Part shown: piece after piece, positions 2,367 to 19,350 of the stretch | How positions within the stretch are numbered: the stretch's first letter is position 1 | Layout of the letters: every line of letters starts with the position of its first letter | The notes under the pieces: model-generated | Seen by the model: the letters and a program-made list of their open reading frames with translations, nothing else | Databases searched by the model: none | Told to the model about the DNA's origin: nothing | Position numbers and translations under genes: made by a program | Virus record (IMG/VR): IMGVR_UViG_3300013094_000166 | Coordinates: 1-32,654 of that record | Source: a virus | Direction: 5' to 3' (one strand) | DNA length: 32,654 nucleotides

Positions 2367-2842
2367 TATTTAATAGAATTAAAGAACTCAAAGCCCAAGG
2401 TAAACGTATTGGCATTACGTTTAGTCAATTTGATTTACTACATGCCGGACATATTGCCATGTTGGCCGAAGCAAAAAATCACTGCGATTATTTGATTGCC
2501 GGCTTACAAACCGACGCCAGCATTGATCGGCCGGACAGTAAAAATCCCCCGGTACAAAGCATTGTGGAACGACAAATACAATTGGGCTCGTGCCGTTATG
2601 TGGACGAGATTATTGTCTACACCACCGAACGAGATCTAATAGATATATTGTTAACACTGCCAATTAATGTGCGTATCTTGGGTAAAGAATATGAAGACAC
2701 CAACTTTACCGGACGCAACGAAGGTGCCACAATGAATATTGAACACATATTCAATGCTCGAGAACATTCTTTCTCGAGCAGTAGTCTGCGTAAACGAGTG
2801 GTTGCAGCAGAAAGTCACAAAGTCTTAACTGACAAGAAGTAA
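2363..2842 (+). CDS. Cytidylyltransferase-like nucleotidyltransferase (TagD/RfaE-C fold)
   Basis: The HIGH-type nucleotide-binding motif HAGH (residues 27-30) follows a beta strand GITFSQFDLLHAGH, and the family's second motif SFSSSSLRKR lies near residues 136-145. These enzymes transfer CMP or AMP to a phosphorylated alcohol or sugar (for example glycerol-3-phosphate to CDP-glycerol). At 159 residues it is slightly longer than TagD (about 130). The substrate cannot be read from sequence. Given the lipid and glycan genes elsewhere in the window, a role in phospholipid-headgroup or surface-glycan precursors is possible. Its last 18 bp overlap the 3' end of the opposing HNH gene, so that element has invaded right up to this gene. 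Confidence 0.82.
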   Translation: MIFNRIKELKAQGKRIGITFSQFDLLHAGHIAMLAEAKNHCDYLIAGLQTDASIDRPDSKNPPVQSIVERQIQLGSCRYVDEIIVYTTERDLIDILLTLPINVRILGKEYEDTNFTGRNEGATMNIEHIFNAREHSFSSSSLRKRVVAAESHKVLTDKK

Positions 2843-3436
2843 TTTTTTGCGAGCAAAAGTTTCTGCAATTTTTTTCTTAGTTTCTTCAGAATGTTTCCTT
2901 CCCGTAAAACCAGGAGTTTTTCTTCCCTTATTTGCTTTGCTAACTGCTTCTTTGACTGCATCAGTTCTTGGAATTCCTTTATTCCAAGAACTTTTGCCTT
3001 TACGGGAAGCTGAAATTTTAGCCCTCCATTCGGGAGTGAAGTCATCTGAAGTTCGATTAGTCTTCTTGCCAAAATTTGGATTCAATGGGCCAACTAAGGT
3101 TTTCATATAATCAGACCTTTGTTTTTTTATTTGTGAGTAAATAATTGATGAGATTTTATATCTTTTTTGATTTTTATTACATTGCATACTCATTCTCCAA
3201 GCCGCATATACCATCTTAGTTTTCAATGATCCTAAAGTCATTCTAGTTAAAAGCAAATGGCAAATGAAATGTTCTTTTGCAGTAAGAGAAACTAAATTTT
3301 CTAAATCATTATTGCCACCGAGACTTTTGGGAATAATATGGTGCTTCTCAACATATTGATTATCACCAAATACTCTTGACTTTGCTCTATTAACTATGCT
3401 AAAATACCATTTAGTGTATTTGTTTTCAATGAACAT
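2825..3436 (-). CDS. HNH homing endonuclease with NUMOD3 repeats
   Basis: The N-terminal half carries an HNH core: VEKHHIIPKSLGG (about residues 29-41) followed by NDLENLVSLTAKEHFICH. The C-terminal half has NUMOD3-type DNA-binding segments: NPNFGKKTNRTSDDF, then NKGRKTPGFTGRKHSEETKK. The protein is 203 residues and reads on the minus strand, against its neighbours. It is more AT-rich than the surrounding genes, as expected of a mobile element. It has its own late-type promoter and an AAAGGA ribosome-binding site (7 nt before the ATG). It is wedged between the cytidylyltransferase and dexA genes. Homing endonucleases of this type cut a cognate phage site and spread by repair; the target here is probably the intergenic junction. 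Confidence 0.92.
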   Translation of the reverse strand: MFIENKYTKWYFSIVNRAKSRVFGDNQYVEKHHIIPKSLGGNNDLENLVSLTAKEHFICHLLLTRMTLGSLKTKMVYAAWRMSMQCNKNQKRYKISSIIYSQIKKQRSDYMKTLVGPLNPNFGKKTNRTSDDFTPEWRAKISASRKGKSSWNKGIPRTDAVKEAVSKANKGRKTPGFTGRKHSEETKKKIAETFARKKLLLVS

Positions 3437-3451
3437 TTTAAATTCCTTTTA

Positions 3452-3461
3452 CTTATTTATG
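3452..3461 (-). promoter_or_regulatory. Late promoter for HNH gene
   Basis: On the minus strand this reads CATAAATAAG, followed by an AAGGA ribosome-binding site and the ATG at 3436. Confidence 0.55.
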
Positions 3462-3478
3462 AAAGATTGGAGAAAATA

Positions 3479-4021
3479 ATGCCAGATGTGATGCTTGACA
3501 TCGAAACACTGGGCACATGCCCAGATTGTGTTGTATTGACCTTGGGTGCGGTTAAGTTCAATCCCTATACTCGAGAAGATATTGCTGGAGGAATTTATTG
3601 CAAACCTGACGTGGACGAACAAATTGAACGTGGGCGTATTGTTCGCGAAGACACAATGGAATGGTGGGCCACACAAGCAGAAGCAGTGCGAGAAGAAGCA
3701 TTAGGAATGCAAGATCGTATACCTGTGACTCAAATGCTACAGGAATTAAACAGATTTCTAGTAGGTGTAAATAACATATGGGCACAGGGCACAGTATTTG
3801 ATATTGGTATACTGGAACATTTGTACAAACAATATGACATGGTGCCAAATTGGCAGTACTGGCAAATAGCAGACAGTCGTACCTTGTTCAAAGTGCACGG
3901 TGATCCAAGAGAAAAGAACAAAGAAGGATTACACAATGCCTTGGAAGACTGTGTGAGTCAAGCCGAAGCGGTACAAACAATATTTTGTGCACTAGAAATA
4001 AAACCCAAGTTTGGAAAGTAA
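3479..4021 (+). CDS. dexA: DexA-like 3'-5' exonuclease (DEDD family)
   Basis: The 180-residue protein begins with the ExoI motif LDIETLG (catalytic Asp7 and Glu9) and carries an EDTMEWWATQ segment typical of T4 DexA. A VFDIGIL motif follows (ExoII Asp). Near the C-terminus HNALEDCVSQAEAV supplies the His and Asp of ExoIII, so it is a DEDDh enzyme. T4 DexA (about 227 residues) is a 3'-5' DNA exonuclease. ATG 3479 was chosen over a TTG at 3467 because GGAG lies 6 nt before it. The close downstream gene (1 nt gap) suggests an operon. No promoter is seen in the 43 bp separating it from the divergent HNH gene, so its original promoter may have been displaced. Confidence 0.88.
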   Translation: MPDVMLDIETLGTCPDCVVLTLGAVKFNPYTREDIAGGIYCKPDVDEQIERGRIVREDTMEWWATQAEAVREEALGMQDRIPVTQMLQELNRFLVGVNNIWAQGTVFDIGILEHLYKQYDMVPNWQYWQIADSRTLFKVHGDPREKNKEGLHNALEDCVSQAEAVQTIFCALEIKPKFGK

Positions 4022-5378: not shown

Positions 5379-5522
5379 ATGAGTTGGTTCAACAAAAAGC
5401 CCCGCCCCAAAAATCCCCCTCAACACCTTTCCGCAAAAAATCTTAGTCCTGCAACCGAACGTGTGATGAAAGAAACCAAAGAACGAGTACGGCCACTCAA
5501 GGAGAAACCCGATGATAAATGA
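5379..5522 (+). CDS. Small basic hypothetical protein (47 aa)
   Basis: A 47-residue Lys/Arg/Pro-rich protein beginning MSWFNKKPRPKNPP. It is preceded by a strong late-promoter match 5 nt from its ATG and overlaps the next gene by 11 bp. The composition suggests nucleic-acid or membrane-surface binding, but nothing more specific can be said. Confidence 0.65.
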   Translation: MSWFNKKPRPKNPPQHLSAKNLSPATERVMKETKERVRPLKEKPDDK

Positions 5523-5694
5523 ACGTATGCTACACAAAATGTATCAACAATGGTGCAGTGGCCGAGACAATGTGGTACAGGACTGGAGTTACTTTGTAGA
5601 GTTTGCTGCAAAGCAAACTGAAATTCCTGCAAACGAAATGGCATCATTGCTACAACGGTGTGATTGGTTTCGTTGGATCGCCGAAGACAAATAA
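5512..5694 (+). CDS. Hypothetical phage protein (60 aa)
   Basis: ATG 5512 has AAGGAG 7 nt upstream, inside the preceding gene. The protein is small, acidic and rich in aromatic residues (many Trp and Phe), and looks like a compact helical domain. No motif recognised. It is co-transcribed with the 47-aa gene. Confidence 0.7.
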   Translation: MINERMLHKMYQQWCSGRDNVVQDWSYFVEFAAKQTEIPANEMASLLQRCDWFRWIAEDK

Positions 5695-5773: not shown

Positions 5774-8596
5774 ATGCGTAAAATGTTTTCGAAGGCCATT
5801 GTGGCCCTTTCAATCGTTATTGCCGGGTTTTCAGCACAAAGCCAAACACTTTATGACTCAGTAGCAACTGCTTATGTTACAACAACTATATCACAAGATG
5901 TTGTATTTGACAACACCATGCAGGCAGGCGGCACATTTACATTCAGTGTTCTAGCACATAACGGTGGTGGGCGACAAGGACAAAGTGATACTGCTAATGT
6001 TAAAATAACTTTTTACAGTTCAAGTAACGCAGTAATTTCCACAGTATCAACAAACTATAGTGCTAACTTACCACAACCCACTGCCAGTGGTGGTGTTGAT
6101 ACATTGGGTATTACACTAAGTGGTAACCCCGAAGCAGACCCTGCAGTACCATGGACATTACTAAGTGTAAGTTCAACAAACTGCGGAGGAAGTTGTGCCA
6201 ATGTGGCATACGCAGTAGTTACTATGTATGGTGTAGACGGCAGTTTTTGGGCAGGAGATTATGGTCCATGGTATCGTGCACCTACACTGACTCTTAACGG
6301 TGGCAGTAACTTATTGTACAATCCAGAGTTCGGTCCTTATAATGGTGTAAATGCACAGGGTTGGGCAATTAGCCCAGCACTAGGTGCTTGTCAAGGTGCT
6401 TGGGGTGGTAGTAATACTTGTATTGTTGACAACACAGGAGCACCTGGTGTAAGCACAACAGGACTTGTTGCTAACCAAGATGGTGGTGGTCCAAGTGCAA
6501 CTGGTGGTACAACATCAGGAGCCGCTGGCGGATACAATAACACAATGAGTGTAGCAAATCCTGGTCCAGGTACAACAGGTACGGGAAATAGTCCAGCACC
6601 TGCTCCAGCACCAACAACTTATAGCAGTATTGGTCCTGGATCTACAGTAACCAGTGATACATTAGCATCGGGTGCAATAACAACCACAGGCGGAACATTA
6701 CAAATAGTCAGTGGCTCAACTACAGTTACTAACAGTATTGGGATGACTAGTGGCACATTAAGTGTAGACGAAAACAGTCAAAATGGTACATTGAGTGGAA
6801 TAATCAGCGGTGCAGGTTCGTTAGAGATTGCCAATAGTGGCACAGGCGGTAGCATTACACTAAGTGCTCAAAATACATACACAGGTGCAACAACAGTCGA
6901 CAGTAGAGCTTCTTTGATTGTTAGTGGAAGCATTGCTACATCAAGTGGTGTTACCAATAATGGTGAATTCACTATTACCAGCACTGGTGTTGCCCCAAAT
7001 ATCACAAACGCAGGAACAACCAACAACTACGGTACAGTAGGTACAGTAACCAGCACTGGAAACTATTACAACTATCCAGGCAGCACAAGTGGTAGTGTAA
7101 CAAGTTCTGGCAACTTTGGTAATGCTGGTTCTGCTGGCAATGTAGTCAATAGTGGCTTATTTGATAATGCACAACCTGGTACTATTGCTAGTTTAACAAA
7201 CACAGGCACTGCAACCAACGAAGGCACAGTTACTGGCGCAGTAACAAACAGTGGTACATTCACTAACAGTGGCACAACTGGTAATGTTAATAACAGTTAT
7301 ACATTTTATAATGCAGGCGCAGTTGGAGCAGTTACAAACAGTGGCGGATTTATCCTGTTAAGTCAAGGTACACTATCTAGTATCAACAACTCAGGTATAT
7401 TTAACATTACTGGTGCTGGCGGTACAGTTAACGTAAACAGTTATACACAAACTGGTGCTGGGCTAACAGTAATGAGTAGCCCACAACAACTTCATGTTAG
7501 TGGTGCTTCCACTTTAGCAGGCAGTTTAACTATTAATAATTCTCCAACCAACTACGGACTTTATACACTAGTAACCGCTGGAACAGTCACAGGCACATAT
7601 AATTCATTTACATTGCCTAATAATACATCCTCAGATGAATATGAATTAGTGTATACCGCAACAAAAGTTGAATTAGAAGTAACTCCAAATACTGCTTTAA
7701 CACAGGCAAGTATTGCTTCAACAGTGTCTAATTTGTCTACAATTAACACACTACAAACTTCAATGTTAGATGGTGCATTAGGTAATGATTGTGCTAATTT
7801 TGGAGATGCTGGGGTTTGTGTGAGTGCAAGTGCCACACACGTCAAAGATCAAATGATCACTGACACAGTTTCTGTGGGCTTTAAACTAACTCCCAACATT
7901 CGTTTTGTTGCTGGACTAGATCGTCCTATACACAATATCATTGTTGGTGATATAGATCAAACCAATAAGCCAACAGGTTCTTGGTTATTGGGTTGGAATG
8001 CCAATCCGGATGCTACAGGCCTAGGATTAACTGCGTCTTATGCCAAAGATGAAACTCCGTTAACAATTACTCGTACAGGTTCTGCTTATTCAGAATCAGC
8101 CACAGGTAATACACTAACTGAAGGAACTGCATACCAAGTTAAAGCAAGTTATGCCTTTGTATTAGATCAAGATGCAACTGTAACTCCTTATATCGGTATA
8201 AGAAAAACACGTTTGGACACCCAAAGTTATACTGAAACTGGTGCTGAATTCCCAATTACTTATAACGACACAGTGCAATCATATACAGATGCACTGGCCG
8301 GAGTCAGTTTCTCTTACAAATTTACACCAGATTTAATGGGATTTGTATCTGCTGGCGTAACACAAAATGAACGTCTAACAACCGGGGCAATATCTGGCAC
8401 AAGTAATATTATTGGTTTAAATACATTTAGTAATACTATGCCTGGAACAAAATATACCGCATACGGAAGCAGTTTTGGTTTTGCTTATCGAGTAGACAAA
8501 ACACAGATGCTGACAGTAGGCGTAAGTTATCAAGAACGTACACTGACTAATTTAAATATTAGTTCATTGAGCATAGGATATACGATAGGCTATTAA
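5774..8596 (+). CDS. Autotransporter-like outer-membrane protein
   Basis: The 940-residue product has a signal peptide (MRKMFSKAIVALSIVIAGFS, probable cleavage after AQSQ). An N-terminal domain (about 25-190) contains several Gly/Ser-rich strands and paired Cys. A Pro-Ala linker (PAPAPAPTT) follows near residue 280. The passenger (about 300-620) is a beta-helix-type series of Asn-Ser-Gly-rich repeats, including an autotransporter-associated strand motif (LSAQNTYTGATTVDSRASL). The last 270 or so residues alternate like a beta barrel and end in the strand SLSIGYTIGY with a C-terminal aromatic residue, as outer-membrane proteins do. Autotransporters are cell-surface adhesins or enzymes secreted through their own barrel. 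One in a lytic-type phage is unusual; a role in surface alteration or exclusion of other phages is inferred. Two small exported-protein genes follow it closely. Confidence 0.8.
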   Translation: MRKMFSKAIVALSIVIAGFSAQSQTLYDSVATAYVTTTISQDVVFDNTMQAGGTFTFSVLAHNGGGRQGQSDTANVKITFYSSSNAVISTVSTNYSANLPQPTASGGVDTLGITLSGNPEADPAVPWTLLSVSSTNCGGSCANVAYAVVTMYGVDGSFWAGDYGPWYRAPTLTLNGGSNLLYNPEFGPYNGVNAQGWAISPALGACQGAWGGSNTCIVDNTGAPGVSTTGLVANQDGGGPSATGGTTSGAAGGYNNTMSVANPGPGTTGTGNSPAPAPAPTTYSSIGPGSTVTSDTLASGAITTTGGTLQIVSGSTTVTNSIGMTSGTLSVDENSQNGTLSGIISGAGSLEIANSGTGGSITLSAQNTYTGATTVDSRASLIVSGSIATSSGVTNNGEFTITSTGVAPNITNAGTTNNYGTVGTVTSTGNYYNYPGSTSGSVTSSGNFGNAGSAGNVVNSGLFDNAQPGTIASLTNTGTATNEGTVTGAVTNSGTFTNSGTTGNVNNSYTFYNAGAVGAVTNSGGFILLSQGTLSSINNSGIFNITGAGGTVNVNSYTQTGAGLTVMSSPQQLHVSGASTLAGSLTINNSPTNYGLYTLVTAGTVTGTYNSFTLPNNTSSDEYELVYTATKVELEVTPNTALTQASIASTVSNLSTINTLQTSMLDGALGNDCANFGDAGVCVSASATHVKDQMITDTVSVGFKLTPNIRFVAGLDRPIHNIIVGDIDQTNKPTGSWLLGWNANPDATGLGLTASYAKDETPLTITRTGSAYSESATGNTLTEGTAYQVKASYAFVLDQDATVTPYIGIRKTRLDTQSYTETGAEFPITYNDTVQSYTDALAGVSFSYKFTPDLMGFVSAGVTQNERLTTGAISGTSNIIGLNTFSNTMPGTKYTAYGSSFGFAYRVDKTQMLTVGVSYQERTLTNLNISSLSIGYTIGY

Positions 8597-8598
8597 AT

Positions 8599-8859
8599 GT
8601 GAAACAACCAAGTAAACTACTTGTGGGAGTTACAACTGCTGCGGCACTAGTAACTCCTTTTGTTCCAAAAAATCTTACTATCAATATCGGAGAACCCCCA
8701 GCAATAGTTGCTGAAGTCAGCACTTGTACTTTAATCAGTACAATCGTTGATGACCGAGGTAAGAGATTCTGTGAATACAGATGTGGATCACAACTAAAAG
8801 TCAAGCCCCAAGAAGGCGGTGACTGCGAAAAAACAATCAACGCCGGATACCTCAAATAA
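8599..8859 (+). CDS. Small exported or membrane protein with four Cys (86 aa)
   Basis: A GTG at 8599 begins two bases after the autotransporter stop; the ATG at 8597 leads straight to a stop. The first 22 residues form a hydrophobic helix (LLVGVTTAAALVTPFV), signal-peptide or anchor-like. Cysteines at 43, 58, 62 and 76 could form disulfides in the periplasm. No family recognised. Position suggests a role with the autotransporter. Confidence 0.62.
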   Translation: MKQPSKLLVGVTTAAALVTPFVPKNLTINIGEPPAIVAEVSTCTLISTIVDDRGKRFCEYRCGSQLKVKPQEGGDCEKTINAGYLK

Positions 8860-8878: not shown

Positions 8879-9181
8879 ATGCGTACACTAGCAGTGGCGT
8901 CGATATTATTCTTAACCAGCTTAGTAGCAAACGCCCAACCCAATTTAATTGAAGTAGACAAACCGGTTACCTGTTCTGATCCCAAAACTGTTATCGAAAC
9001 ATTGAGTGGTCAATACCAAGAACAACCATTTTGGAGCGGAAGGGGTTCAGAAAGCAAATACGTTTTACTTGTAAACCCCAAGACTAACACCTGGAGCATG
9101 GTAGAGTACAATGACAAAATTGCCTGTGTTGTGGGCGCGGGCAAAAGTGCCAGACAGATATTTTTAGGTCCCGGAACGTAA
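8879..9181 (+). CDS. Small secreted protein (100 aa)
   Basis: ATG 8879 was chosen because AAAGGAG lies 5 nt before it; an upstream in-frame start at 8819 would put the signal peptide internal. Residues 1-19 (MRTLAVASILFLTSLVANA) are a textbook Sec signal peptide. The mature part is 80 residues with two Cys (32, 83) and several short beta segments. No family recognised. It is the third consecutive exported product after the autotransporter, before the terminator at 9263. Confidence 0.78.
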   Translation: MRTLAVASILFLTSLVANAQPNLIEVDKPVTCSDPKTVIETLSGQYQEQPFWSGRGSESKYVLLVNPKTNTWSMVEYNDKIACVVGAGKSARQIFLGPGT

Positions 9182-9203: not shown

Positions 9204-9285
9204 CTAAATAATAATAACCGGGCACAACGATAGAGTGCACTCTGGAACTCGTAACCAGAAACAAGCACCTTCGGGTGCTTTTTTT
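9204..9285 (+). ncRNA. Possible small structured RNA ending in terminator
   Basis: A late-promoter-like CTAAATAAT (9204-9212) is followed by about 70 nt with a 10-nt palindrome GAGTGCACTC (9233-9242), a stem TCTGG/CCAGA (9241-9258 region) and the terminator at 9263-9285. There is no reading frame with a start and ribosome-binding site here. It may be a small RNA, or just the 3' trailer of the preceding operon. Confidence 0.3.
9263..9285 (+). terminator. Strong rho-independent terminator
   Basis: AAGCACC, a TTCG tetraloop, GGTGCTT and a run of T. It ends the autotransporter region and isolates the PlcP-like operon that follows. Confidence 0.92.
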
Positions 9286-9323
9286 ATGTAATTTAAATGT
9301 AACATTATTACTGTATAATATCT

Positions 9324-9332
9324 GTAAATACT
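9324..9332 (+). promoter_or_regulatory. Late promoter of the plcP-agt-ugd operon
   Basis: GTAAATACT ends 2 nt before the ATG at 9335, so the mRNA is probably leaderless. A TATAAT at 9314-9319 overlaps the same region and could be an additional host-type -10. Confidence 0.6.
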
Positions 9333-9334
9333 GT

Positions 9335-10126
9335 ATGAAGACTTATCGCAGTATTTTTATATCAGATGTGCATCTCGGTACCAAAGACTGCAAAGCCGAA
9401 GCCCTAAACAATTTTCTTAAGCACAACACCTGTGAAACACTTTACATGGTGGGCGACATCATTGATGCTTGGAAAATGCAACAGAACCGATTGCGTTGGA
9501 AACAAAGCCATACCAACGTAGTTAGACGTGTACTGGGGCATGCCAAACGTGGTACTAGGGTTGTTTATGTTGCTGGCAATCATGATGAATTTTTGCGACC
9601 CATGATACCGTATGGTGCCAGTTTTGGTACTGTGGAAATTTGTAACATGATCGAACACGTTGGCGCTGATGGCAAGCACTACCTTGTGGTACATGGTGAC
9701 TTGTTTGATGGTATTACTAGACTTGCTCCATGGCTCAGTTTCTTGGGCGACAAAGCCTATGATTTTATACTGGGCGTCAACAGTAGATTCAATTGGATAC
9801 GACATCGTTTGGGATTTGGCTATTGGAGCTTGAGTAAATACTTAAAGGGTCGAGTCAAAAGAGCCATAGACTTTATTTTTAAATTTGAGGGAAACCTTGC
9901 CAATTACTGTAAGAAAAAAGGCTATGATGGTGTTATATGTGGGCACATACATCACGCCGAGATAAAAGAGATCAACGGTGTAGTATACATGAACGATGGT
10001 GATTGGGTAGAAAGTTGTACTGCCCTAGTTGAACACCACAACGGTCAATGGGAAATAATAACTTGGACAAAATCAAATGACAAAGACAATACTGATAATA
10101 ACGGACAATTTACCGGACCAAATTAA
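9335..10126 (+). CDS. plcP: Calcineurin-like phosphoesterase, PlcP/LpxH family
   Basis: The 263-residue protein has all five metallophosphoesterase motifs in order: SDVHLG (10-15), GDIID (40-44), AGNHDE (80-85), VHGD (119-122) and CGHIHH (202-207). It also has segments I associate with the COG2908 branch that includes PlcP: WSLSKYLKGRVKRA and NDGDWVESCTALVEH. In phosphate-starved Sinorhizobium and SAR11 bacteria, PlcP is a phospholipase C that releases diacylglycerol from phospholipids; the related LpxH splits UDP-diacylglucosamine in lipid A synthesis. The immediate partner here is a GT4 glycosyltransferase overlapping by 50 bp, the same pairing as plcP-agt, which favours PlcP over LpxH. An upstream TTG-type extension to 9275 was rejected because it runs through the terminator. 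Assignment to PlcP rather than LpxH is inference. Confidence 0.78.
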   Translation: MKTYRSIFISDVHLGTKDCKAEALNNFLKHNTCETLYMVGDIIDAWKMQQNRLRWKQSHTNVVRRVLGHAKRGTRVVYVAGNHDEFLRPMIPYGASFGTVEICNMIEHVGADGKHYLVVHGDLFDGITRLAPWLSFLGDKAYDFILGVNSRFNWIRHRLGFGYWSLSKYLKGRVKRAIDFIFKFEGNLANYCKKKGYDGVICGHIHHAEIKEINGVVYMNDGDWVESCTALVEHHNGQWEIITWTKSNDKDNTDNNGQFTGPN

Positions 10127-11090
10127 TGGCGTTGTTACCACTTACAAGAATATTGAAGCATGTGCGGTTTTGGACGGTTATAACGTTGTGGTGTGCCATC
10201 CCGGGTGGTTCCGCTATATTGATTGCCCTGGCTACAACGAAGTCAAGATTGCCTATCCGCGCAACTTGGGCCAGAAGATTAAGGAGATCGCTCCGGATTA
10301 TATCCATGTCGCCACAGAAGGTCCTTTGGGTTTGTGGGCTAGAAAATATCTGTCACTATGTGATATTAGGCACAATACCGCTTATCATACTAAATTTCCT
10401 GAAGGCTTAAAGAAACTATTTCACATCCCGGAATTTTTAACTTGGCACTTTGTGCGTTGGTTCCACAAACATTCGGGTAAAGTATTAACTACAACTGACA
10501 GTATGGTGCGAGAATTACAAGCACACGGCTTCAATGGAGAAGTTATTCCTTGGACCCGTGGAGTAGATCGCAATATCTTTACTCCTGATCTAAGAGCAGA
10601 TAATATAAATGGAAAATATCTGTTATGCGTCAGTAGAGTAAGCAAAGAAAAATCATTGGAAGATTTCTTTGAATTGGATTATCCGGGTTATCATAAAATA
10701 ATGGTGGGCGATGGTCCTATGTTGGAAACTTATCGAAAGCGATATCCCGATGTACATTTTACAGGATTTAAAACAGGATCAGCATTGGCTAGATATTATG
10801 CCAATGCCGAAGCATTTGTATTTCCTTCACGTTGGGAAACATTTGGCATTGTCATGATCGAAGCCATGGCCTGTGGAACTCCGGTCGCGGCCTATCCCTG
10901 CCAAGGTCCCGAGGATGTAATTGACGAAGGCGTTACGGGATGTATGCGACACGATCTCAAAGAAGCAGTAGATGTTGCATTAAAACTGGATAGAAAAAGT
11001 GTTTGGCAAGGATCAAATCGTTGGACTTGGTCACGTGCTTGGCAAATATTTCGGGACAATTTAGTTCCAAGCGACTTGACTAAATTGTAA
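10077..11090 (+). CDS. agt: GT4 glycosyltransferase, Agt-like
   Basis: The 337-residue protein has the GT-B/GT4 layout: an N-terminal Rossmann domain starting TILIITDNLPDQINGVV with the acceptor-side Gly-Val motif, then a C-terminal donor domain starting LLCVSRVSKEKSLEDF. The GT4 signature WETFGIVMIEAMACGTPVAA (EX7E glutamates) follows. This is the subfamily often annotated as alpha-mannosyltransferase, which also contains Agt. Agt puts glucose or glucuronic acid on diacylglycerol to make glycolipids. It overlaps the PlcP-like gene by 50 bp in another frame and has no own Shine-Dalgarno, so translation is probably coupled. A UDP-sugar dehydrogenase gene follows. The lipid acceptor is inferred from this neighbourhood; glycan or LPS acceptors are alternatives. 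Confidence 0.75.
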   Translation: MTKTILIITDNLPDQINGVVTTYKNIEACAVLDGYNVVVCHPGWFRYIDCPGYNEVKIAYPRNLGQKIKEIAPDYIHVATEGPLGLWARKYLSLCDIRHNTAYHTKFPEGLKKLFHIPEFLTWHFVRWFHKHSGKVLTTTDSMVRELQAHGFNGEVIPWTRGVDRNIFTPDLRADNINGKYLLCVSRVSKEKSLEDFFELDYPGYHKIMVGDGPMLETYRKRYPDVHFTGFKTGSALARYYANAEAFVFPSRWETFGIVMIEAMACGTPVAAYPCQGPEDVIDEGVTGCMRHDLKEAVDVALKLDRKSVWQGSNRWTWSRAWQIFRDNLVPSDLTKL

Positions 11091-11126
11091 ATAGATATTA
11101 TAATCAATCAACTAATGGGAGCATCA

Positions 11127-11918
11127 ATGAAAATAGGCATTATAGGCTATGGCTTTGTGGGCAAAGCAGTGGCAAACAGTTTTGCAGGTTACGACAAAAT
11201 CAAAGTCAAGATACACGATCCTGCTTACCCAGAAATATCAAAAAGCATAGACAAGATAAAAGAAAAATGCGAGGCCATCTTTGTATGCTTGCCTACTCCG
11301 CAAAGCGAACACGGTGAATGTGATACTACGATACTAGAAGGTGTACTGGAACAGTTGCTCGGCTACGAGGGAATGGTTATTTGTAAAAGCACTGCACCTC
11401 CTATTACCTATAGAAGATTGGAAAATGAACTGGGACTAAAACTGATACATGCCCCGGAGTTTTTAACTGCGGCAAAAGCCAACTTTGATTACGTCAATCC
11501 CATAAACATTGTTATTGGTGGCAAACCCAAGTTATGGGAAGAGGCCGCAAAGTACATTGTGCCTTATACATATTTTGAACCTGACCATGTGCATTATTGT
11601 AGTGCCGCTGAAGCCGCTATGTTCAAGTATGTGGCCAATACCATGTTGGCCATGAAGGTTGTAATGAACAACGAATACGCAGCTCTTTGCGAACGACTAA
11701 ACATCAATTGGGAAACAGTTGCAGGTATTGCTGAAAGTGATGAACGATTAGGCGACACTCATTGGCGAGTTCCTGGCCCAGATGGTAAACGCGGATTTGG
11801 TGGAGCCTGTTTCCCCAAGGATACTGCTGCCTTGCTCAACATGGCCGACGAACTAGACATTGAAATGTCAATGTTGTCGACTGCTATACGTACAAACGAT
11901 CGATTAAGGAAAGCATAA
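11127..11918 (+). CDS. ugd: Short UDP-glucose/GDP-mannose dehydrogenase
   Basis: The 263-residue protein starts with an NAD-binding Rossmann motif (KIGIIGYGFVGKAVA, residues 2-16). It has the STAPP loop (88-92), HAPEFL (108-113) and the catalytic Cys228 in FGGACFPKD. It ends about residue 263, so the C-terminal UDP-binding domain of bacterial Ugd (about 390-450 residues) is missing; short forms like this occur in phages. These enzymes oxidise UDP-glucose to UDP-glucuronate. In this operon UDP-glucuronate would be the donor for a glucuronosyl-diacylglycerol product of the preceding glycosyltransferase. ATG 11127 was preferred over 11115 because GGAG lies 5 nt before it. The gene may have its own weak late promoter at 11087. 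Confidence 0.85.
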   Translation: MKIGIIGYGFVGKAVANSFAGYDKIKVKIHDPAYPEISKSIDKIKEKCEAIFVCLPTPQSEHGECDTTILEGVLEQLLGYEGMVICKSTAPPITYRRLENELGLKLIHAPEFLTAAKANFDYVNPINIVIGGKPKLWEEAAKYIVPYTYFEPDHVHYCSAAEAAMFKYVANTMLAMKVVMNNEYAALCERLNINWETVAGIAESDERLGDTHWRVPGPDGKRGFGGACFPKDTAALLNMADELDIEMSMLSTAIRTNDRLRKA

Positions 11919-12815: not shown

Positions 12816-13529
12816 ATGAAATATATCTTATCAATTCTAATAGCATTTTTATCGCTAAATTCCTGGGCCAAAGACATAACTGCAACCAGCTGGCTGGTGG
12901 CCAACGAGCAAGGTACTATAATCAGACAAGAAAATGTAGATGAATTACGCCCAATTGGCAGTATCACCAAATTGATCACTGTAATGATTGTGCTTGATGC
13001 TGGGCAAAATCTTGATGAGCAATTGGGTCGATATACTCGTCGACAATTGATACAGTTGGCCCTGGTCAAAAGTGATAATAATGCTGCTATTACACTCTGT
13101 GACAATTATCCCGGCGGTAAAGAAGTCTGTATACGTGCAATGAATGCAAAAGCACAAGAATTATACATGAAAAACACTAGATTCAATGAACCCAGTGGTC
13201 TAAGTATGTTTGATGTAAGTACAGCAAACGAATTGGTTAATTTGGTTATAGCGGCTCAAAATTATCCACTTATTGTTGAAGCAGCTCATACAAGTACTGC
13301 CAAAATCAAGGTCAAGAAAAAGTGGTTGGTGTTTCGCAATACCAATCCCATTATTGGCTACAATCAAAATGTAATCGTCAGCAAAACCGGCTACATACGA
13401 GCAGCCGGGGGATGTTTGGTTATGATGATTGACACCGAAGTAGGGCGTCGTATTGTGGTGTTATTGGGCAGTAAAAATACTCATACCCGAATTCCCGAAG
13501 CAGAAATAATAATCAAAAACACCGATTAA
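12816..13529 (+). CDS. pbpG: PBP7-like DD-peptidase/endopeptidase (S11 family)
   Basis: A signal peptide (MKYILSILIAFLSLNSWA, residues 1-18) leads to the three active-site motifs of penicillin-binding S11 peptidases: SITK (49-52, acylating Ser49), SDN (86-88) and KTG (190-192). The segments NTNPIIGYNQNVIVSKTG and AAGGCLVM match the PBP7/PbpG branch, which cuts D-Ala-mDAP crosslinks in the periplasm. At 237 residues it has the catalytic domain but little C-terminal extension. No Shine-Dalgarno is evident before ATG 12816. A phage copy could loosen crosslinks for lysis or support envelope remodelling; exported DD-peptidases are rare in lytic phages. It converges on the following small minus-strand gene, overlapping by 4 bp. 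Confidence 0.9.
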   Translation: MKYILSILIAFLSLNSWAKDITATSWLVANEQGTIIRQENVDELRPIGSITKLITVMIVLDAGQNLDEQLGRYTRRQLIQLALVKSDNNAAITLCDNYPGGKEVCIRAMNAKAQELYMKNTRFNEPSGLSMFDVSTANELVNLVIAAQNYPLIVEAAHTSTAKIKVKKKWLVFRNTNPIIGYNQNVIVSKTGYIRAAGGCLVMMIDTEVGRRIVVLLGSKNTHTRIPEAEIIIKNTD

Positions 13530-15114: not shown

Positions 15115-15675
15115 ATGTATTTACACTATTACGTCTACGCCTATCTAAGAAAAGATGGTACTCCTTATTATATCGGAAAAGGTAAAGGTGAACGAGCTTG
15201 GAAACATTGCACGACTGATATCATACATCCGCCAATTGACAAATCAAGAATTATTATAATTGAAGATAAGTTGACAGAAGTAGGGGCATTAGCAATTGAA
15301 AGAAGACTAATCGCCTGGTATGGTCGAAAAGATTTAGAAACTGGAATATTAAGAAATAGGACAGATGGAGGGGATGGTACGTCAGGAGTAATACGATCTC
15401 AAATACAATGCGAAACATGTAAAAAAATAATCGATGAACAGAATTATAAACGATGGCATGGAATTAATTGCACTGGTAATCGAGGAAAAGTTTTTCTTAA
15501 AGGATTAATAACTTGTAATCATTGCGGGATAACTTGCAGAGGTTGCAATTACACAAAATATCATGGAGATATGTGCTATAAAAATCCTACCTCTCCACGA
15601 TACGGACAAGTCCAAAGATGGAAAAAACGCGAATATAAAAATAGCCAATATCAAACTCAAACCACTTTTGACTAA
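15115..15675 (+). CDS. GIY-YIG homing endonuclease with zinc-finger-like C-terminus
   Basis: The N-terminal 90 residues form a GIY-YIG nuclease: [19 protein letters not shown] (5-23) gives the two Tyr-containing motifs. The conserved Arg (GERAW) and Glu ([11 protein letters not shown]) follow. The C-terminal half has two Cys/His clusters, CETCKKII and [11 protein letters not shown], each followed by a similar YKRWHGINC or YTKYHGDMC segment. This suggests two tandem zinc-binding DNA-recognition modules. The 186-residue protein is AT-rich. Its last 89 bp overlap, antisense, the 3' end of the desaturase gene. Its structured leader is shared with the decayed element at 19852-20028. Confidence 0.9.
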
Positions 15676-16300
15676 GTTTTATATTAGCTGGATTTTGGTG
15701 ATGATTAGAGTGTAACTCTTCACCACCAATCCATATTCCCCAGGGAAAAATATTTTTACTTTTATCTTTTGTGGGTCCATTTTTGTATCCAATCCAGTGC
15801 CCTACCCCATTGATTATTCCTGCTGCATGAAGTGGTACCCAAATCATTTGCACTAGCCAAACTAGGAATCCTATAGGACCAAATAATAATAAATCTATGA
15901 ACAACATAATCACAATACCTAATCGACTGTGTTTGGAGTATATAGTTCGTTCTAGCCAATCATTGGGAGTACCTTGTCCGTATTGTGCTACCATGGCACT
16001 ATCTTTAGAAGCGTTGTTGTATAATAATGCCCCTTGAGCCAGTACCCGCCAAAACCCATAAACATGCGGACTATGCGGATCGCCCTCAACATCACTGTAT
16101 CTGTGATGCTTTCGATGTATGGCTACCCACTGACGGGTGACCATACCGGTAGTGAGCCATAACCAAAAACGCATGAAGTGACTGAGTACGGGATGAAAGG
16201 TCAAGCCTCGATGTGCTTGACCCCTATGTAGGAAAACTGTAACACAAACTATGGTGATGTGAGTTGCGATCAGTGTGAATAAAATTACATCCAAAGCCAT
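15587..16300 (-). CDS. Fatty-acid desaturase (membrane, di-iron)
   Basis: The 237-residue membrane protein has the three His boxes of acyl desaturases: HRGQAH (25-30), HRKHH (62-66) and HSNHH (197-201). Hydrophobic pairs of helices lie between them. These enzymes use O2 and electrons to put a cis double bond into acyl chains at the inner membrane. It is shorter than host delta-9 desaturases (about 300) but keeps all boxes. Lipid desaturases are an established auxiliary gene class in cyanophages. The start overlaps the end of the upstream DUF4337-like gene by 16 bp, so they form an operon. With the PlcP/Agt-like genes it suggests that the phage alters membrane lipid composition. Confidence 0.9.
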
Positions 16301-18120: not shown

Positions 18121-19350
18121 ATGAATGTAGGATTTATTGGAATCGGAAAATTGGGAATGAGTTGTGCCGAAGTAATGGCAACAAAGCATACGGTAACTGG
18201 ATATGATATTTATCGTAAAAACAGTGACCGGATTAAAATTGTTGACGATCTCAGTGATGCAGTACTGGGACAAGATATCGTATTCATTGCTGTACAGACC
18301 CCACACGATCCCGCATATGATGGATCGGCACCAATTGCTCATTTACCCAATCGAGATTTTAGTTATGACACAGTGACACAAGTGCTCAAACAAGTAAACT
18401 GTTGGGCACGTCCTAACCAATTGATAGTATTAATATCTACAGTACTGCCAGGAACTGTTCGAGGCAAACTACAACAACACATCACAAATGGCCGTTTTGT
18501 TTATAATCCTTATCTTATTGCCATGGGTTCGGTAGAATGGGACATGGTGAACCCCGAAATGGTTATCATCGGAACCGAAGATGGTAGTCTGACCGGAGAT
18601 GCACAACAACTAATAGAATTTTATCAAACCATCATGGAAAACAATCCCCGATATGAAGTTGGGACGTGGGACGAAGCCGAGTGTATCAAGGTATTCTATA
18701 ACACCTTCATCAGTGCCAAGATTGGACTTGCAAACATGATACAGGACGTTGCCGTCAAGCAGGGCAACATCAATGTAGACGTTGTGACCAACGCCCTGGC
18801 AAACTCGACCATGCGTATTATGGGACCTAAGTACATGACCGCAGGACTTGGCGATGCTGGTCCTTGCCACCCACGCGACAACATAGCACTAAGATATCTT
18901 GCTGACCGTTTAAATTTAGGCTACGACCTATTTGATGCCATTATGAATGCCAGAGAAATACAAGCCGAAAATATGGCTCGGTTTGTGCACAGTGCGACCG
19001 CAACCGAAAAGGGTGTGTTGCCGATCTACATACACGGCAAAGCCTACAAGCCCGATGTTGCTTACCTAGAAGGTAGTTACAGTTTGTTAGTGGGACACTT
19101 CTTGGAGCAGATGGGAGCCGAAGTACACTACATTGATCCCTTGACCGAGCCCGATGTACCACGTAGTGTATGCGGTGTGGTACTACTAGCACACAACAAA
19201 CAAATCACATATGGCTATGCCGGCGTTGAAGATGAACAACCGCTCTATTGCACAATCGAGGATGGAAGTGTTATAATAGATCCATGGCGTAAGTATAATA
19301 CCACCAATCCCAATATAAAGGTAATACATTATGGCAACACACGCAAATAA
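18121..19350 (+). CDS. UDP-sugar 6-dehydrogenase (full length)
   Basis: The 409-residue protein has the complete UDP-glucose/GDP-mannose dehydrogenase layout: GFIGIGKLGMSCAEV (4-18, NAD site), a VLPGT loop (108-112), a central helix, the catalytic Cys249 in GDAGPCHPRDN, and a C-terminal domain starting YIHGKAYKPDV that matches the UDP-binding domain. It oxidises the C6 hydroxyl of a UDP-hexose to a carboxylate. It differs from the short dehydrogenase at 11127 in length and active-site context, so the substrates may differ (UDP-glucose, UDP-GlcNAc/ManNAc or similar). AAGGA lies 8 nt before ATG 18121. It overlaps the next gene by 20 bp. Confidence 0.88.
   Translation: MNVGFIGIGKLGMSCAEVMATKHTVTGYDIYRKNSDRIKIVDDLSDAVLGQDIVFIAVQTPHDPAYDGSAPIAHLPNRDFSYDTVTQVLKQVNCWARPNQLIVLISTVLPGTVRGKLQQHITNGRFVYNPYLIAMGSVEWDMVNPEMVIIGTEDGSLTGDAQQLIEFYQTIMENNPRYEVGTWDEAECIKVFYNTFISAKIGLANMIQDVAVKQGNINVDVVTNALANSTMRIMGPKYMTAGLGDAGPCHPRDNIALRYLADRLNLGYDLFDAIMNAREIQAENMARFVHSATATEKGVLPIYIHGKAYKPDVAYLEGSYSLLVGHFLEQMGAEVHYIDPLTEPDVPRSVCGVVLLAHNKQITYGYAGVEDEQPLYCTIEDGSVIIDPWRKYNTTNPNIKVIHYGNTRK

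Follow-up and report, generated by a model that had tools for sequence, protein, structure and literature searches.

The window analysed here, a stretch of DNA of 32,654 nucleotides from a freshwater phage, apparently T4-like, encodes a classical (type Va) autotransporter, the 940-aa ORF P0001. Our reading, to which we give a probability of about 0.68, is that P0001 would show a lectin-like N-terminal domain (N-domain) on the infected cell, that curlin fibre and barrel are interchangeable anchors for it, and that the slot holding the gene is swapped by recombination. The slot is best read as a hypervariable place in which each phage keeps a single ligand-binding protein for display at the surface, the outer-membrane anchor being exchangeable, and P0001 is most likely sent to the host envelope and no part of the virion. 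The features of the ORF are the following:

5774..8596, + strand, autotransporter ORF P0001, 940 aa (PF03797, AlphaFold2, Foldseek)
5774..5845, + strand, signal peptide of P0001 (sequence; about 90% DNA identity in contig L136)
5879..6295, + strand, N-domain core, a beta-sandwich like the Fbs1/FBG3 sugar-binding domain (conservation, AlphaFold2, Foldseek, motif alignment)
6296..6571, + strand, remaining conserved N-domain, YNPEFGP...GACQGAWGGSN... (conservation; no confident model)
6626..7453, + strand, N/S/G/T-rich passenger repeats, probable beta-helix (sequence composition)
7691..7777, + strand, alpha-helix plug of the translocator domain (AlphaFold2)
7814..8593, + strand, 12-strand autotransporter barrel (PF03797) with Tyr at its end (Pfam, AlphaFold2, Foldseek)

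The first-pass annotation had described a 940-residue ORF with a signal peptide, and this was borne out: the protein encoded at 5774-8596 (+) begins, as read from its sequence, with the Sec-type signal peptide MRKMFSKAIVALSIVIAGFSAQSQ, followed by about 240 non-repetitive residues, a repetitive N/S/G/T-rich passenger and a C-terminal domain whose last residues are GYTIGY, ending in the aromatic Tyr. Residues 266-560 contain 17% G, 19% T, 15% S and 11% N while K and R are nearly absent, and the passenger may form a beta-helix. Searches with the whole protein against Pfam, PHROG and PDB gave no usable match and neither did an NCBIfam scan, in which a CoA-transferase match lay far under the cut-off; the domains were found only by isolated-domain searches, since the full-length scans missed them.

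When the C-terminus was isolated (window:7565-8593) it matched PF03797 (Autotransporter) with 47.6 bits and an E-value of 2.3e-12, the curated Pfam cut-off being 26 bits, and relatives scored from 56 to 77 bits; moreover, a profile of this region matched the NalP translocator (E 2e-4). The structure prediction that had been proposed as a check for a beta barrel was run with AlphaFold2, and the model, built on 5 aligned sequences, displays a barrel of 12 long strands (pLDDT 81.5, pTM 0.75) plugged by a 29-residue helix (model residues 43-71), with EstA, NalP and EspP as the top Foldseek matches. The idea of an autotransporter carried by a phage thus stood, by the PF03797 score above cut-off, the 12-strand model and the signal peptide; what the earlier reading of P0001 overlooked is its main feature, the N-terminal lectin-like domain, and its fixed envelope set was not supported (see below). 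One scan of bacterial genomes returned a sole bacterial relative, a Beijerinckiaceae autotransporter (L049:7757-10837) whose passenger is Gly-rich (GGxGGxG) and which is related in the barrel region alone (about 25% identity).

The window is a 32.7-kb fragment from which the T4 portal and gp23 genes are absent; relatives of the locus, on contigs of 160 and 170 kb, encode both, in keeping with a T4-like origin. Several of its genes are worth recording. An HNH homing endonuclease gene (2825-3436, -) lies in a short insert, and contig L129 is without window positions 2843-3484, its flanks joining within a few bases. Envelope-type genes are dense (2363-2842, 9275-11918, 12816-13529, 15587-16300 (-) and 18121-19350), and the envelope-type products of the window include a heptose-phosphate adenylyltransferase-like protein, a metallophosphoesterase, a group 1 glycosyltransferase, two UDP-glucose dehydrogenase-like proteins, a peptidase and a fatty acid desaturase.

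The first ~260 residues of P0001 are common to 47 other phage contigs from one viral scan, at about 60-77% identity, while only two of these (L014 and L023) match the protein over its full length; exactly one copy of the N-domain is present in each of the 48 records. AlphaFold2 modelled the domain as a beta-sandwich, with confidence for most of residues 36-174 and there only, and the best PDB matches of this model in Foldseek were 3wso, 2e31 and 1umi (FBG3, Fbs1; E from 7.9e-5 to 5.8e-4), with 11-18% identity in the structural match. A profile search, with a weak E-value, aligned the stretch GIDGSYWAGDYGPW of the N-domain with GVDTHYWAGWYGPR of FBXO44, and in this alignment the aromatic residue 158 and W159, which is invariant within SFWAGDYGPW, fall on the Tyr-Trp pair of FBG3. 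In Fbs1 this pair touches the glycan, yet FBG3 has the same pair and binds no sugar (PMC4603797); the pair is therefore necessary but insufficient for sugar binding, and that the modelled domain may bind carbohydrate is a good guess. The N-domain is extremely conserved between phages that are otherwise diverse, an unusual trait in an adhesin with variable targets and a point against our reading. Matches of the N-domain profile to chlorophyll-binding proteins, around the WAGxYGxW stretch, were set aside as chance, and matches in BFVD as generic carbohydrate-binding sandwiches.

The N-domain is found on two kinds of protein, of curlin-repeat type in 30 of the 48 records (two of them truncated proteins placed by sequence similarity) and of barrel type in the other 18, the window included (a few also truncated and placed by similarity). 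Curlin repeats (PF07012) were found in the forms of L034, L022 and L043, and a Pfam scan found none in P0001. The curlin-type gene closes the phage curli operon, whose order is csgF-csgG-curlin-FecR-[N-domain/curlin]. For 29 of these 30 genes csgG is found some 2-3 kb upstream, in the same orientation, the thirtieth being cut at the contig end, whereas none of the 18 barrel-type genes has csgG next to it. CsgG is present in 35 of the 48 records. Six barrel-type records do have a csg operon, at a distance of 20-27 kb downstream and in the same orientation; in those examined among the six, the last curlin of the distant operon is without the N-domain. CsgG (PF03783) is absent from the window and from its relatives of 64, 160 and 170 kb, although csg genes could lie elsewhere in the genome, the window being a fragment. 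A 1.5-kb record named as a Salmonella phage (L128, OR851715.1), which carries a CsgG relative, was left out as unverified and probably a metagenomic or bacterial fragment.

In a tree of the N-domain, well-supported branches force at least two changes of anchor. The N-domain of the window clusters with the barrel types L003, L004, L006 and L012, and its passenger and barrel are nearest to those of L014, L023 and L076. Extra domains are also seen between the N-domain and the curlin repeats (L029:6067-8622, L026:8841-11132 and L022:10001-11911); L022 and L017 have F5/8 type C there and L029 and L026 have others, so that several ligand domains are stacked in these curlin-type proteins.

A comparable distribution was observed for a second, unrelated N-terminal domain ('FSFNQVFDVQWY'), seen in L132 and L136 and present in 17 contigs: its six forms with curlin-like C-termini all have csgG upstream, and its 11 barrel-type or truncated forms have no csgG at the locus. 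The barrels of the second families A5 and A6 were called from a C-terminal Phe and a strand-like pattern, a Pfam scan of them gave no match, and their putative barrel identity is the weaker part of the anchor pattern. Pooled, the association between anchor type and adjacent csgG is strong, with a Fisher p of about 3e-17, a value inflated by near-copies among the contigs, which make the counts not independent, and including some assignments by similarity. Other combinations occur; in L076 the last gene of a csg operon joins a barrel of the window's type (75.7 bits to PF03797) to a further N-terminal domain, and in HTVC008M the equivalent curlin carries a PA14 domain. What recurs is a single exported protein with a ligand domain, on an anchor that varies.

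The flanks of P0001 hold the following features:

5512..5694, + strand, 60-aa ORF with relatives inside the phage curli operons of L019, L024, L025, L037 and L040
5725..5733, + strand, late-promoter-like box TAAATACTA, 49 b before the P0001 ATG
8599..8859, + strand, small Cys-rich ORF, exported or anchored, kept in empty-site relatives
8879..9181, + strand, small ORF with a signal peptide, start reset to the ATG at 8879

We compared this slot among relatives sharing 76-95% identity in the upstream 288-aa protein. It is empty in L129, L130 and L131, where the 60-aa ORF directly adjoins P0002; it holds a 224-aa ORF in L133 and L134, and a different autotransporter-like protein in L132 and L136. 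In L136 the promoter and signal peptide share 90% DNA identity with the window, which drops to 47% (background) exactly from the start of the mature protein, and the homology returns at the stop codon of the slot gene. Taken together, the three states of the slot and the identity break in L136 indicate a recombination cassette. Unrelated small ORFs inserted at or beside it (L133:3626-4300 and L136:9291-9941) suggest a recombination hotspot.

Relatives of the 8879..9181 ORF come after the N-domain/curlin gene in L018, L025, L038 and L041; with both flanking ORFs having relatives in or after curli genes, the slot is tied to the csg locus. A simple deletion of a csg operon from the slot is weakened as an explanation, since the nearest relatives are without both csg genes and N-domain, which makes a gain via recombination as likely as a loss. 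The first-pass annotation had seen two small exported proteins downstream as an envelope set; both indeed have hydrophobic N-termini, but they persist in relatives without the barrel gene, and a fixed set is not supported. P0002 and P0003, kept at empty sites, were accordingly rejected as obligate partners of the barrel and are taken as its neighbours instead.

A late promoter had also been proposed for P0001, and the box 49 b before its ATG agrees with this; the TAAATACTA box occurs four times in the window against 0.33 expected. TAAATA was found at most 125 b upstream of 17 of the 18 barrel-type genes and before none of the curlin-type N-domain genes, which sit inside the operon; it also precedes most of the csgF genes examined and, in three of four related phages, gp23, from which it is some 40 b away. 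Late expression of P0001 is likely on these motifs.

The mechanism that we propose is the following. P0001 would be transcribed late and exported by the Sec route through its signal peptide; the predicted 12-strand barrel would insert in the outer membrane, presumably by the Bam machinery of the host, the beta-helical stalk would be translocated, and the N-domain would be presented outward on the surface of the infected cell. Related T4-like phages would show the same N-domain on curlin subunits that leave the cell through a CsgG/CsgF pore of the phage's own, and the slot would be exchanged through recombination at two boundaries, one between signal peptide and mature protein and one between ligand domain and anchor.

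The main rival is superinfection exclusion or surface masking, in which P0001 at the surface would cover or block receptors and thereby keep competing phages from adsorbing, an option that Wittmers et al. list for phage curli (PMC9599517). The surface location of the protein and the envelope-sugar genes in the window would agree with it, and a single copy per record with cassette exchange would suit an arms race. The late-type promoter boxes are mildly contrary, as imm and sp, the exclusion genes of T4, are early-acting; moreover, the strongly conserved lectin-like domain seems made for one ligand, and a PHROG search showed no similarity of P0001 to known exclusion proteins, and we consider this explanation unlikely. 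Considerably less probable is a role as export pore or aid to lysis, in which the barrel perturbs the outer membrane and times lysis while the passenger is incidental: CsgG has been proposed as a pinholin-like pore by the authors describing Melnitz (PMC9004378) and the promoter is of late type, but the ligand domain, not the pore, is the most conserved part, such domains are kept across two unrelated anchors, and in the AlphaFold2 model a helix plugs the barrel.

That P0001 is a virion component, for instance a tail fibre or a decoration protein built on a beta-helical shaft, we regard as very improbable; although fibres often contain beta-helices and the N-domain is similar in fold to domains with which phage tail fibres bind carbohydrate, the Sec signal peptide is conserved among family members, a PF03797 barrel follows, the other form of the protein is a csg-operon curlin, and P0001 matched no PHROG tail family. 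Finally, the Beijerinckiaceae protein, sole relative in the bacterial scan and related in the barrel alone, might suggest an assembly artefact or contamination by a bacterial autotransporter, but the N-domain is in 47 more viral contigs, flanks and signal peptide recur in L132 and L136, and L014 and L023 resemble P0001 from end to end; independent contigs already contradict this and we consider it hardly credible.

We therefore return to display of the N-domain by exchangeable anchors. Its most likely use, with about an even chance, would be to let the infected cell, ahead of lysis, adhere to cells nearby, to particles or to glycans of the matrix. By analogy P0001 might serve aggregation or 'sibling capture', an idea put forward for phage curli (PMC7029224, PMC9599517); the lack of clumping in cultures of the curli-bearing phage Melnitz (PMC9004378) counts against aggregation. 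More broadly, and tentatively, T4-like phages may carry interchangeable ligand domains on interchangeable vehicles, either the curli fibre with its CsgG pore or a one-gene autotransporter, and so keep new hosts or other targets attached to the infected cell until it lyses. If modular display holds, the window is the curli-free form, and curli are the anchor, not the purpose, of phage csg operons. That the same domain occurs on curlin and on barrel suggests that its display counts for more than the vehicle used, and the exchange of anchors indicates that selection acts on the N-terminal domain shown at the surface; P0001 offers a one-gene, csg-free version of the display open to laboratory tests.

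Phage curli operons are already known: Wittmers et al. described csgF, csgG, curlins, FecR and adenylate cyclase in phages (PMC9599517), and the function of these genes was left open, with pore and fibre discussed (PMC7029224, PMC9004378, PMC9599517). A literature search covering few subscription papers found no phage-borne classical autotransporter, lectin-like N-domain or exchange between curli and barrel anchors. In pelagiphages and Melnitz (type VIII secretion; HTVC008M gp014-gp019; PMC7029224, PMC9004378, PMC9599517) the order is csgF-csgG-curlin-FecR-second curlin, the same as in the relatives of the window, and in the freshwater relatives the place of this second curlin is that of the homologous slot. 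In contrast to these operons the window is without CsgG/CsgF or curlin repeats, its anchor being a barrel, and its N-domain is absent from the proteins of HTVC008M, which have PA14 there, and of Melnitz, which have none.

P0001 resembles the type Va autotransporters (PF03797; NalP, EstA, EspP) in its signal peptide, 12-strand barrel, helix plug, aromatic end and long N/S/G/T-rich passenger; it differs from them in being encoded by a T4-like phage, in having an N-terminal lectin-like domain common to curlin proteins, and in giving no Pfam match when scanned whole. With Fbs1/FBXO2 and FBG3/FBXO44 the N-domain shares the beta-sandwich and the aligned GxDxxYWAGxYGP motif with its Tyr-Trp, but it has no F-box and belongs to an exported phage protein. 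A distant N-domain (31%, E 3e-6), which itself aligns weakly to Fbs1, follows an N-terminal hydrophobic stretch in WJZ48438.1 (L125:7842-10676) of the Actinomycetia phage DSL-LC01; DSL-LC01 is a phage of a Gram-positive-type host. Unlike P0001, its protein is without barrel or curlin and has instead Thr-rich linkers and a hydrophobic segment at the C-terminus, possibly a third way of anchoring the N-domain.
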